The notes under the pieces: generated by a model
Seen by the model: the letters and a program-made list of their open reading frames with translations, nothing else
Told to the model about the DNA's origin: nothing
Databases searched by the model: none
NCBI RefSeq assembly: GCF_001676785.2
Contig: NZ_CP015910.2
Span: 2,852,001-2,916,000, forward strand
From: Brachyspira hyodysenteriae ATCC 27164
GTDB lineage: Bacteria; Spirochaetota; Brachyspiria; Brachyspirales; Brachyspiraceae
Reading direction: 5' to 3'
DNA: 64,000 nt
Translations under genes and position numbers: made by a program
Shown: piece by piece, positions 7,571 through 41,624 of the stretch
How the letters are laid out: each line of letters begins with the position of its first letter
How positions within the stretch are numbered: the first letter of the stretch is position 1

Positions 7571-7739
7571 TATTATAAATCATATTTAAGAAATTTTAAA
7601 CTACTTGTAAATAATTATATATGCATTATTATAAAAAATTGTTTTATTTTAAAAGATATAAAAATAGTTGATTTTAGTATTATAAATATTAATTAAAAAC
7701 AATACTAATATACAAAAAATTTAAAAAAAGGGTAATAAA

Positions 7740-7853
7740 ATGGATAATATAAATTTTGATATACAAAGCAATAAAGACAATTATTTTGAAAGTGAAACTA
7801 ATGCCTACATTAACCAGCCTAAAAAAATTTTACTATTGCTAGCTATAAACTAG
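7740..7853 (+). pseudogene. Truncated 5' copy of the CMD-family gene
   Basis: From 7695 the DNA nearly repeats the leader and first codons of the intact gene at 7948: the same AATACTAATATACAAAAAAT stretch, the same GGGTAATAAA ribosome region, then ATG with MDNINFDIQSNKDNYFESE. It stays recognisable for about 36 codons (…NQPKKI) and then runs into a nested hairpin element with a stop at 7851-7853. No remainder of the gene follows. This is a duplicated, truncated remnant with several substitutions, so it is not recent. Confidence 0.8.
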
Positions 7854-7912
7854 CCTAAAAATAGCTGACAACTAAAGTTATCAGCTGCTCGTTTATAGCT
7901 TAAAAACAATAC
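7833..7912. repeat. Nested two-stem hairpin element (copy H7)
   Basis: Outer stem GCTATAAAC (7842-7850) / GTTTATAGC (7891-7899). Inner stem AGCTGACAACT (7863-7873) / AGTTATCAGCT (7876-7886) with one mismatch. It matches the element at 40474-40556 in sequence and the array at 13727-14012 in architecture. It lies exactly between the truncated and intact gene copies. The whole gap 7545-7947 is accounted for by the palindrome, this hairpin and the truncated copy. Confidence 0.8.
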
Positions 7913-7947
7913 TAATATACAAAAAATTTAAAAAAAAGGGTAATAAA

Positions 7948-8565
7948 ATGGACAATATAAACTTTGACATAAAAAGCAATAAAGACAATTATTTTGAAAG
8001 TGAAATAGAAGCATATATAAAACCTCCTAAGAAAATCCCTTTCTTTTTGAAATTTCCTATGTGGATAGCGAAAAAGAAAGTGAAAAAAGATTTACTGCTT
8101 CCAAAGATTTTAGCTTGGAATCCTAAAACTGCAATAAGTTCTGGAGTAATGGAAGCATTAATAACTCATGATGATAAAGAAGTACCTAAAAGGCTTTTGA
8201 AACTCATAAGAATACAGATTTCAATAGACGTAGCCTGTCCGTTTTGCATAGACATGAACAGCTTTGAATATGATAAAGAAAATGTAACAGATGAAGAAAT
8301 AAAATATTTACAAAATAAAGATATAGATGCTTGCCCTACTCTATCGAATAAAGAAAAAATAGCTTTAAAATATATTTCAGCTATAACAAAAACACCTGTA
8401 ATAATATCCGAAGAATTAATCACAGAAGTAAAAAAAGAGTATTCAGAACGTGCCATATTAATATTAGCTTCCACTGCCGCACAGGTTAATTATTGGGCTA
8501 GGCTTATAAGAGGATTAGGAGTTCCTACTGCCGGCTTTACAAATATATGTAAAATTAATAAATAA
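7948..8565 (+). CDS. Carboxymuconolactone decarboxylase / AhpD-family protein
   Basis: Cytoplasmic all-helical protein of the CMD/AhpD fold, 205 aa. The key segment is VACPFCIDMNSFEY (from about residue 95), where CPFC is the redox CxxC typical of alkylhydroperoxidase-like members and is followed by the usual ID-N-S pattern. The C-terminal NYWARLIRGLGVP is also typical. Many family members are thiol peroxidase-like; the true substrate is unknown. AAGGG lies 8 nt before the ATG. A broken copy of its 5' end lies about 200 bp upstream. The canonical AhpD proton-relay His two turns after CxxC is not obvious, so catalytic activity is uncertain. Confidence 0.82.
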   Translation: MDNINFDIKSNKDNYFESEIEAYIKPPKKIPFFLKFPMWIAKKKVKKDLLLPKILAWNPKTAISSGVMEALITHDDKEVPKRLLKLIRIQISIDVACPFCIDMNSFEYDKENVTDEEIKYLQNKDIDACPTLSNKEKIALKYISAITKTPVIISEELITEVKKEYSERAILILASTAAQVNYWARLIRGLGVPTAGFTNICKINK

Positions 8566-12976: not shown

Positions 12977-13723
12977 CTAATCATTATTTCTGCCAAAAGA
13001 TACACCTATATAAAACATAAATGATAAAGAAGATAATTGATAATTCTTTATTAAAGTTTTATCAATTATTTTTATATTATCAGTATTATAGGACATTGAA
13101 AAATCATAAAGTATATAAGCTCCATATAAAAAAGCTAATTTTTCGGTGATATAAGAAAGTCCATCAAAGTTTATTTTTATATAAGGAGATACAGGAACTT
13201 TATATATTGTTTTTATAGTATCAAAATTCCAACTTTTTTTATCCTGATGCATTAAAGAGCCTTCAAAAAACCCTTCTTTTTTATCTTTATCAATTTGAGC
13301 ATATAAAGGTATTTTTATTCCAGCACCTATTCCTAATGAAAAATTATTAAAATTTATTTTAGGATTAAAGCCAATTAAAATATTATGAAATGTCAAAGTT
13401 TCTGTAACTTTAAAATAATTATATGAATCAGCATAAGGATATTCATAAGTTATAGTATTAGCATTTAAATAATATCCCAATTCAAAAAGAAAACTTATAG
13501 AGCTTATGGATATATTTTTATTCAATGCCAAATTATAACCAAGCTGAGTAATTACTCCAAACTCTCCTCCCAAATTTCCTTTTATACTTTCATAGGTATG
13601 ATTAGGACGATTTAATGTTATAGACGCAAAACTCCCATTGATACCAAATGGAATAAATGCATTTACTTCAAATTGAGCAAATAAAGTAATATTTATAATT
13701 AAAAAAATGATTATTGCTTTCAT
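12977..13723 (-). CDS. Outer-membrane-type beta-rich protein, unknown function
   Basis: A 248-aa protein with a signal peptide (MKAIIIFLIINITLFAQFEVNA). Alternating polar/aromatic stretches such as YNLALNKNISISSISFLFEL and ASITLNRPNHTYESIKG suggest a small beta-barrel. The true start is taken as ATG 13723 because it begins the signal peptide. The frame stays open for another 64 codons through the upstream 75-bp repeats, since the period is a multiple of three. Directly before the ATG there is no Shine-Dalgarno. The only good one (AAGGAGG, 14016-14022) is about 290 bp away on the far side of the repeat array. Expression may therefore be reduced, or N-terminally extended from ATGs inside the repeats. 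No named family recognised. Confidence 0.75.
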   Translation of the reverse strand: MKAIIIFLIINITLFAQFEVNAFIPFGINGSFASITLNRPNHTYESIKGNLGGEFGVITQLGYNLALNKNISISSISFLFELGYYLNANTITYEYPYADSYNYFKVTETLTFHNILIGFNPKINFNNFSLGIGAGIKIPLYAQIDKDKKEGFFEGSLMHQDKKSWNFDTIKTIYKVPVSPYIKINFDGLSYITEKLAFLYGAYILYDFSMSYNTDNIKIIDKTLIKNYQLSSLSFMFYIGVSFGRNND

Positions 13724-13726
13724 ATT

Positions 13727-14012
13727 GTTGCTAATAAAAATTGTTCGCTTATAATCCTCTGCCATTCTTGCGAATGCCAGAGGCTCACAATTTTTATGGT
13801 TGTTGCTAATAAAAATTGTTCGCTTATAATCCTCTGCCATTCTTGCGAATGCCAGAGGCTCACAATTTTTATGGTTGTTGCTAATAAAAATTGTTCGCTT
13901 ATAATCCTCTGCCATTCTTGCGAATGCCAGAGGCTCACAATTTTTATGGTTATTGCTAATAAAAATTGTTCACTTATAACCATATGACATTCGAGGCTTA
14001 CAATTTTTATTT
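13727..14012. repeat. Tandem array of nested hairpins, 75-bp period (copies H1-H4)
   Basis: Three near-identical units start at 13731, 13806 and 13881; a fourth, internally shortened, starts at 13956. Each has an outer stem ATAAAAATTGT / ACAATTTTTAT and an inner stem CCTCTGCCATTC / GAATGCCAGAGG with one mismatch and loop TTGC. The units are contiguous with no unique spacers, so this is not a CRISPR array. The array separates the Shine-Dalgarno of the minus-strand gene from its start codon. Confidence 0.93.
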
Positions 14013-14015
14013 AAT

Positions 14016-14022
14016 CCTCCTT
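14016..14022 (-). promoter_or_regulatory. Stranded Shine-Dalgarno (AAGGAGG)
   Basis: On the minus strand AAGGAGG is followed by ATTAAAT and then the hairpin array. In that reading the next start-like codon is TTG followed at once by TAA. It looks like the original ribosome site of the gene now starting at 13723. Confidence 0.6.
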
Positions 14023-18193: not shown

Positions 18194-18247
18194 TTATATA
18201 TAATTAAAATATAGCGATTGGTCAATTTATTTTAGATTAGTATAATA

Positions 18248-18314
18248 ATAAAAATTGTGAGTGTCTGAGAAATTTATTTGCCAGACATTGCGGGCGAACA
18301 ATTTTTTAACAATA
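18248..18314. repeat. Nested hairpin element (copy H5) upstream of tmk
   Basis: Outer stem AAAATTGT / ACAATTTT, GAG at the junction, inner stem TGTCTG / CAGACA, then GGGCGAACAATTTTT. This is the reverse-strand equivalent of the 13.7-kb array unit: its arms AAAATTGTGAG and GCGAACAATTTTT are shared while the inner stem differs. The rest of the 18194-18410 gap shows no convincing gene. Confidence 0.7.
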
Positions 18315-18410
18315 ATAATGAAAAAAAAATTATATATTCTTTTGATTTATTTTTAATAATTGTTATATTTATAATAGGGGTAGGATGTAAATATAATTCA
18401 GGAAAAATTA

Positions 18411-40443: not shown

Positions 40444-40473
40444 TATTATGCTCCTTAAAAATAATAATTTTTT

Positions 40474-40556
40474 ATTGTTGCTAGGGATAAACTCGCTAAG
40501 ACATAGCTGACAACTTCCTTCGTCAGTTATCAGCTGCTCGTTTATCACTTAAAAAC
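40474..40556. repeat. Nested two-stem hairpin element (copy H6) in the flgK leader
   Basis: Outer stem GATAAAC (40486-40492) / GTTTATC (40540-40546); inner stem AGCTGACAACT (40505-40515) / AGTTATCAGCT (40525-40535) with one mismatch. Flanks TTGTTGCTAG and TTAAAAACA match H7. It starts about 30 bp upstream of the flgK start codon. Confidence 0.85.
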
Positions 40557-40727
40557 ATAGTAACTTAATTAATATATAATTTTTATTAGTTAATTAACAA
40601 CTATAATAAATAATAATTTACTTATTAGAATTATCGTATTTATAAAAAAAATAATTACATTTTTTTTATTATTATTGTAACAAAAGGTAACATAATAATA
40701 AAATATTATATATATGCTTTATATTTA

Positions 40728-41624
40728 TTAGAGATTCTCTATTTCTTCTATACTAAGACCAGTATTTTCACTTATTATATTTATGTCTATACCTGCATTT
40801 TTTAAATTTTTAGCTATAGTAATCTGCTCAGATTTTTTACCTTTCTCCACACCTTCTTCCATCCCTTTTTTTATACCTTCTTTTATGCCTTCTTCCCGCT
40901 CTCTCTTAAGCATAACCTTTTGACCATATAAAAAAGCATCTCTGGCATTATAGACTTCCATTTCATCTTCATTTGATATGAAACGTTCATATTTATTAAT
41001 TACTTTAGACATTATGCAGTTTGCCTCCTTTAACCTTTCCTTTACTTCATATAAATCTTTTGCTGTAAAAAACTCTATCCAAGATAATATTTCATTTCTC
41101 TTTATATCTTCAATACTAGAAACATATAAAATATTTTTAAATCTTGGAACTTCCAATATATGCATCTGTACCATATCTAAAACAACATTAGGATTTTTTA
41201 TATCTATTAATTTAAAACATCTATGAGGCTTACCTTCATCATTAAAATCCATATTGAAATTAACGAAATTAATACTTATAACCTCACTAATTATATCATA
41301 TGGTTCTTTTTCATCCACTTCACTTACTATATTTCTAGATATATAATAATATATTCTCTTCAAAAAATCTATATTGCCTGATAATTGTATTTCTATAATT
41401 ATTTTTTTATTACTTTTTGTAATGGCTTTAACATCAAGTACAGATTCTTTTAAATTAATATTTTCAGGAAGATTATGAGGATTAATGATATGCAAATTAT
41501 GAACTTCTTCAAATCCTAAATCTTTAAGTACAGAGTTTACTATATTTTCAAGTATGTCCTCATTTCCTTCAGATGCTAACAGGTATCTAATAAAATAATC
41601 ATTCATTCTGTTTATGTTTCTCAT
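40728..41624 (-). CDS. Rpn-family recombination-promoting nuclease / PD-(D/E)XK transposase-like protein
   Basis: 298 aa. N-terminal NDYFIRYLLASEGNEDILEN, then the PD-(D/E)XK core: ESVLDVKAITKSNKKIIIEI ending EIQLS (residues ~60-83), with Asp in VLDVKA and E-x-Q in the next strand. FLKRIYYYISRNIVSEVDE follows. The C-terminus is a charged coiled coil (KEGIKKGMEEGVEKGKKSEQ) and a short helical tail that looks like a helix-turn-helix. Rpn proteins are often multicopy and can promote recombination or nick DNA. The gene appears intact. No terminal inverted repeats seen. It is next to hairpin copy H6 and flgK. Confidence 0.88.
   Translation of the reverse strand: MRNINRMNDYFIRYLLASEGNEDILENIVNSVLKDLGFEEVHNLHIINPHNLPENINLKESVLDVKAITKSNKKIIIEIQLSGNIDFLKRIYYYISRNIVSEVDEKEPYDIISEVISINFVNFNMDFNDEGKPHRCFKLIDIKNPNVVLDMVQMHILEVPRFKNILYVSSIEDIKRNEILSWIEFFTAKDLYEVKERLKEANCIMSKVINKYERFISNEDEMEVYNARDAFLYGQKVMLKREREEGIKEGIKKGMEEGVEKGKKSEQITIAKNLKNAGIDINIISENTGLSIEEIENL

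Follow-up and report, generated by a model that had tools for sequence, protein, structure and literature searches.

In this study, four copies of a small hairpin element, designated A, B, C and D, were located in the window, which is the whole 64,000-nucleotide stretch of the Brachyspira hyodysenteriae ATCC 27164 genome that was analysed. The element first noticed at 40474 is real, but the full copy A runs from 40471 to 40619 once its AT-rich tail and a 12-bp duplication are counted. The site at 13724-14012 consists of three identical 75-bp units and one diverged unit, and the copy at 18248 lies on the strand opposite to the other three. The features are as follows:

40471..40619, minus strand (sense strand): complete type I insertion of copy A; most relatives lack it at the orthologous site
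40484-40548, minus strand: hairpin core of copy A, to which an AT-rich 5' tail and one target-duplication copy are added
40459..40470 (left) and 40608-40619 (right): target duplication AAATAATAATTT of copy A, single in empty sites
40728..41624, minus strand: gene of an Rpn family PD-(D/E)XK nuclease (PF12784, E=3e-36; TIGR01784)
7842..7899, minus strand: hairpin core of copy B, type I; covariance model 67.9 bits; antisense to the gene at 7948
7693..7829, approximate: upstream copy of the duplicated target of copy B (leader and gene start), from flank alignment
about 7903-8040, approximate limits: second copy of the duplicated target of copy B, from flank alignment
13736..14010, minus strand: copy C, an array of type II (model matches, 75-bp repeats)
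13736-13795, 13811-13870 and 13886-13945: cores of array C, with a diverged fourth at 13955-14010
14016..14022, minus strand: Shine-Dalgarno (SD) sequence AAGGAGG of gene 12977-13723, array C lying between it and the ATG (13723-13721)
18202..18337, plus strand: copy D insertion, type II; core 18250-18306; model match of 50 bits; empty site in L197
18192-18201 and 18328-18337: 10-bp duplication AATTATATAT of copy D

By direct reading, the elements at 7833, 13727, 18248 and 40474 were all observed to have a common architecture, as proposed in the initial annotation; it consists of an AT-rich outer stem, a GAGC/GCGA junction with a bulge, and a variable inner stem. From the TTATTATTGCTA end, the outer stem is followed by TCGC, a bulge of 7-8 nt, the inner stem, GCTC and the outer stem again, the order on the complement being outer-GAGC-inner-bulge-GCGA-outer, and GAGC and GCGA are able to pair as two G.A mismatches and two G-C pairs. 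The elements are ~75 to 150 bases long, with a constant sense 3' end (..AGCAATAATA) and a variable 5' end; of the two flanks originally named, TTATTATTGCTA is the constant end, but TTAAAAACA proved to be part of the variable tail. Three outer-stem types were recognized (GCGATAAAC, AAAAATTGT and AAAAAATC), and the inner stems are free to vary. Modules are also shuffled, as where a type III outer stem encloses an inner stem of type I, and nested copies occur, with a type II or III element harbored in a type I bulge. A variant whose two junction mismatches have given way to ordinary pairs (GACAGC/GCTGTC) was noticed as six copies in tandem at genome positions 2796632-2797362 (L088). Another hairpin class, TTATTGTTATGCTCGCCTACGCC ... 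GGCTTCGGCTCGC with a TTATTATTG-like flank, is found in tandem or adjoining the studied element (L090, at 930646; L078, at 951440; L047; and L072, at 107035 and 108125).

When the 3.07-Mb genome was scanned with a spaced pattern derived from this anatomy, 33 matches were obtained, compared with 0 for the reversed control, and BLAST with the 40474 copy detected ~30 places in the genome at E<1e-5. The covariance model R1, built from 13 copies of the own genome and used with a cut-off of E<1e-3, recorded 62 matches in that genome, and the search for copies across the genus was positive in 24 of 26 Brachyspira genomes, while none of 35 genomes outside the genus had a match. The number of copies per Brachyspira genome was 0-2 in eight genomes and 14-77 in the others. 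In the covariance-fitted alignment of 113 distinct sequences, 20 of the 22 model pairs had changes on both sides and 93.7% of cells were paired, compared with 36-47% when partners were slid by 1-3 columns, figures that lean towards structure because the alignment was fitted to the model; a MAFFT alignment of 13 hand-picked copies displayed both-sided change in 18 of 23 pairs. The compensatory change that had been suspected in the inner stems is thus supported, and since many further copies were found and their pairing exceeds that of the slid controls, the earlier reservation that the hairpins might have no other copies, or pair no better than shuffled sequence, falls away. Nothing rose above the Rfam gathering threshold in the window or in three element-rich loci, and no published description of the hairpin family was found in the literature searched, with subscription journals outside its coverage. 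The element is apparently an undescribed mobile hairpin of Brachyspira, present in most genomes of the genus. Spread by phages or plasmids was considered and rejected, as only one exact pattern match was obtained, on one contig of a viral collection.

Mismatches that are wobbles on the complement alone numbered 86, against 15 on the strand on which the hairpins were initially read, and 36 against 15 when a single ancestrally mismatched pair was left out. Because of this asymmetry, and of an orientation bias, the complement, here called sense, is more likely the structured strand, contrary to the first reading. In the own genome, both flanking genes are oriented in the sense direction at 29 loci and against it at 3, and among 80 loci of other genomes 50 lie with sense-direction genes and 10 against; overall, the element is co-directional with its flanking genes at 79:13. 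The P values for these counts are optimistic, because ORFs were called in a simple way and orthologous loci are numerous. The motif AGAAR is 2.6 times more frequent on coding than on template strands in the window, which explains part of the bias. Replication strand was rejected as its cause, the ratio being ~25:17 by inspection with the origin assumed at 0, which is much weaker than 29:3. The placement upstream of genes, as first described, holds for the four sites of the window, but genome-wide many copies lie just past the 3' end of a gene.

Comparison with relatives disclosed empty sites. Copy A is absent at the orthologous place in most relatives, present in G005 and G008 and internally deleted in G013, and AAATAATAATTT flanks the insert on both sides and is single in the empty site. 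Several Brachyspira lack copy D, the empty site in L197 revealing the duplication of ~10 bp, and copy B lies between two target copies of ~137 bp. The copy at genome position 571469 is bracketed by a duplicated stretch of ~140 bp from the 3' end of a gene, which is single and without such a hairpin in G019, G023, G017, G016, G003, G024 and G010, and the same locus harbors several units in G004 and G012. Direct repeats of at least 16 nt adjoin 47 of 168 elements, arrays included, against 2-3 expected from swapped flanks. The duplication, which varies in length (10 bp in D, 12 bp in A, ~137 bp in B and ~140 bp at 571469), begins directly past the constant ..AGCAATAATA end, and 14 of 18 loci have G^AA or a close variant as its upstream boundary, these 18 being hand-picked from the table as non-array and the duplication limits being blurred by AT-richness. 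Since the repeat starts at the constant end with a G^AA boundary, the arrays are of the form [element + duplicated target]n. AAATTATTATTT is often found at both ends of type I copies, so in these the 12-bp repeat may be a favoured target or a part of the element. The element is structured, dispersed and recently polymorphic, and its flanks carry target duplications 10 to ~140 bp in length. Of the proposal that these are REP-like mobile hairpins, the mobility is borne out by the empty sites and target duplications, and the likeness to REPs stands only as an analogy. Replication slippage, that is, tandem duplication at an old hairpin without transposition, would suit the [H+F]n arrays seen at many loci with copy numbers varying between species, but we regard it as very improbable, considering that empty sites hold F once with the hairpin absent, and that F starts at the element end, at the G^AA boundary, at unrelated loci.

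The copies in array C and in the leader of an ankyrin-repeat gene are old and conserved, so young insertions do not account for every copy. Array C separates AAGGAGG from the ATG of the downstream gene, whose product has a signal-peptide-like start and weakly matches an outer-membrane family. This SD-AUG gap holds one to four hairpins, intact or decayed, in all eight genomes (species) examined, among them G007 and G014, which have one strong copy each elsewhere. The linear spacing between SD and AUG ranges from 49 to 292 nt, the outer stem is kept in nearly all eight species, and G014 is the only genome with no predicted closing stem. The SD is predicted to be unpaired, and the AUG mostly so (0.29 in G014). 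This suggests that a stem closing the gap is a simple way to tolerate a mobile hairpin between the Shine-Dalgarno sequence and the start codon. The copy upstream of the ankyrin-repeat gene is likewise retained across species, and it and array C look domesticated, whereas A, B and D do not. The suggestion of a leader control element is therefore plausible at 13724-14012, but it fails at flgK (40474) and tmk (18248), because relatives have no element there, and at 7833, because that copy is antisense to its gene. As an account of the whole family, a cis-acting leader or trailer RNA, its copies retained because they control the adjacent gene, is in our view distinctly unlikely: the co-directional orientation, the hairpin kept between SD and AUG in eight species with its closing stem predicted in all but one, and the retained ankyrin-gene copy argue for it, but the flgK and tmk copies are absent in relatives, the neighbour genes have no common function, copy B is antisense and other copies lie past gene ends.

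An Rpn gene (PDDEXK_2/TIGR01784) is located 0.1 kb upstream, in the sense direction, of copy A, and the family counts 0-40 copies per genome. The element sits at the stop codon in ~10 of 36 sampled Rpn genes (G021 excluded), with a decayed element in several more, and 6 of 42 own-genome loci adjoin Rpn 3' ends against ~0.3 expected. As the element brings a UGA in UGAGC, insertion at an Rpn stop should be harmless. The terminal codons GAAATARAAAA are usually repeated behind the Rpn-adjacent element, and the presence of the element is scattered over the Rpn tree, indicating repeated insertions or many losses. The idea that Rpn genes are the ancestral home of the element, with the UGA of UGAGC as their stop, was rejected because the repeated terminal codons and the scatter on the tree point to repeated insertion. 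Element and Rpn copy numbers are correlated (rho 0.57), but the correlation with genome size is stronger (0.77), and this confounding led us to discard the correlation as proof; G021 carries 25 Rpn genes and no element. We consider the Rpn nucleases a recurrent insertion target and a candidate helper. In published work, rpn genes are described as horizontally mobile and not as conventional transposases (PMC10327210), and RecA-independent transfer is studied with the Rpn proteins of E. coli (PMC5350276); no hairpin element turned up when the two papers were searched by term. Broken Rpn genes with the element inside were also noticed (L155, L156 and L167).

With regard to other enzymes, the check for a REP-associated transposase gave 0 matches to Y1 (PF01797) in the own genome, with five control genomes positive. 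The element shares with the REP/REPIN-RAYT system (PMC3116915) the small, dispersed, extragenic and non-autonomous hairpins, the tandem clusters and an association with a nuclease-type gene family. That it is a true REP/REPIN moved by a Y1 (RAYT) transposase is nevertheless hardly credible, for this genome lacks Y1, the neighbours are mostly direct repeats and not inverted doublets (4 mixed-orientation clusters among 80 other-genome loci), and the element has a bulged two-stem structure and long, variable target duplications. MITEs, as non-autonomous DDE transposons, are similarly short and non-coding, with inverted repeats and target duplications, but the duplications of the Brachyspira element vary from 10 to ~140 bp, one of its ends is constant and the other variable, and no parent transposon was noticed. 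The element thus behaves like a REP- or MITE-type passenger, yet it failed the tested defining features of both. To our knowledge, target duplications that are long and variable, combined with a preferred nick motif, are outside the standard transposase classes, and this misfit makes the enzyme worth finding. Mitochondrial GC clusters, or double-hairpin elements (PMC4478555), are also mobile nested palindromes with module merger and shuffling, insertion polymorphism and an unknown engine, but the Brachyspira element is bacterial, with an AT-rich outer stem and long duplications instead of AG or ACT. Integron attC sites were rejected, as by eye the type II and III outer stems lack RYYYAAC/GTTRRRY boxes.

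The constant end at a preferred nick, the variable other end and the duplications of 10-140 bp bear a closer resemblance to target-primed retroposition than to cut-and-paste transposition. In the proposed mechanism, one target strand would be nicked at G^AA, and the constant end of a copy, either RNA or single-stranded DNA, would be joined or copied at the nick; the other strand would be cut 10-140 bp downstream, so that gap filling would duplicate the interval, and recombination between duplicates would yield the [element+target]n arrays. The enzyme would act in trans, with the Rpn PD-(D/E)XK nucleases as candidates, and most copies would be passengers tolerated beside genes, of which a few, such as array C, may have become leader parts. 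We consider it probable that the element is such a genus-wide, non-autonomous mobile hairpin, with a nick at G^AA, gap-filled duplication, a trans-acting enzyme, mostly tolerated passengers and few leader parts. One form of this explanation, SINE-like retroposition in which the element RNA is reverse transcribed at the nicked target, is unlikely; it agrees with the constant 3' end, the variable 5' tail, the variable duplications, the preferred nick motif and the transcribed strand being the structured one, as in retroposons of the SINE/LINE type, but 15 of 18 element-rich genomes, including several complete ones, lack reverse transcriptase (PF00078, RVT_1), which was thus rejected as the resident engine. 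PF00078 was present in the other 3 of the 18 and in 4 of 8 element-poor genomes.

The element was also detected in the apical loop of 35-nt CRISPR repeats (GTCTCGATACCCTACTCAATGTAGGAAAGCGGGAT) separated by spacers of 27-30 nt in three species (G019, G003 and G012). The pattern flagged it in 19 of 32 repeats, two others of equal length looking alike, and in one example the repeat stem is predicted still to fold around the element. One array adjoins cas1, cas2 and a Cas13 gene, and another adjoins a Cas13 gene; these type VI arrays are a mixture of plain, medium-loop and hairpin-bearing repeats. Brachyspira and Cas13 were not found together in the literature searched. The hairpin-bearing arrays are:

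L389 7172-15960, equal to L096 4487-6060 (G019): hairpin-bearing type VI array
L109, L112, L113, L133, L142 and L144: further hairpin-bearing type VI arrays

A bolder reading, which we hold only tentatively and think rather unlikely as a whole, is that the hairpin enters its target at a G^AA nick, in the form of RNA or single-stranded DNA and with the second strand cut at a distance, and that this is driven by an Rpn-type PD-(D/E)XK or other non-DDE, non-Y1 enzyme; the hairpin would also spread within the repeats of Cas13 CRISPR arrays, where it may be copied during spacer acquisition. Brachyspira are gut spirochaetes, some of them pathogenic to pigs and people. If these interpretations are true, a mobile hairpin would have reshaped gene borders and entered CRISPR repeats in most Brachyspira genomes, and would have created tandem arrays resembling the variable repeats on which strain typing relies.

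A distinct dispersed repeat, ~110 nt long and containing CCCACCC and GTTTACCGTGCG motifs, was noticed in the window, and similar motifs also adjoin elements in L294 and L295:

4-110, 24108-24214, 25056-25162, 25403-25509 and 56373-56479: copies of the ~110-nt CCCACCC/GTTTACCGTGCG repeat

Among spirochaetes, the Treponema TD-2 RNA (Rfam RF03162) is likewise a structured element with many dispersed and near-tandem copies, but it has a different sequence and a three-hairpin fold; homology, which a sub-threshold match had prompted us to consider, was rejected on these grounds, and TD-2 was absent from the Brachyspira genomes searched. TD-2 is typed by Rfam as an sRNA gene. Several genomes from other genera of the phylum (L336-L347) have 19 or more copies each, with near-tandem pairs, and this abundance and pairing indicate that TD-2 may itself be a mobile hairpin.
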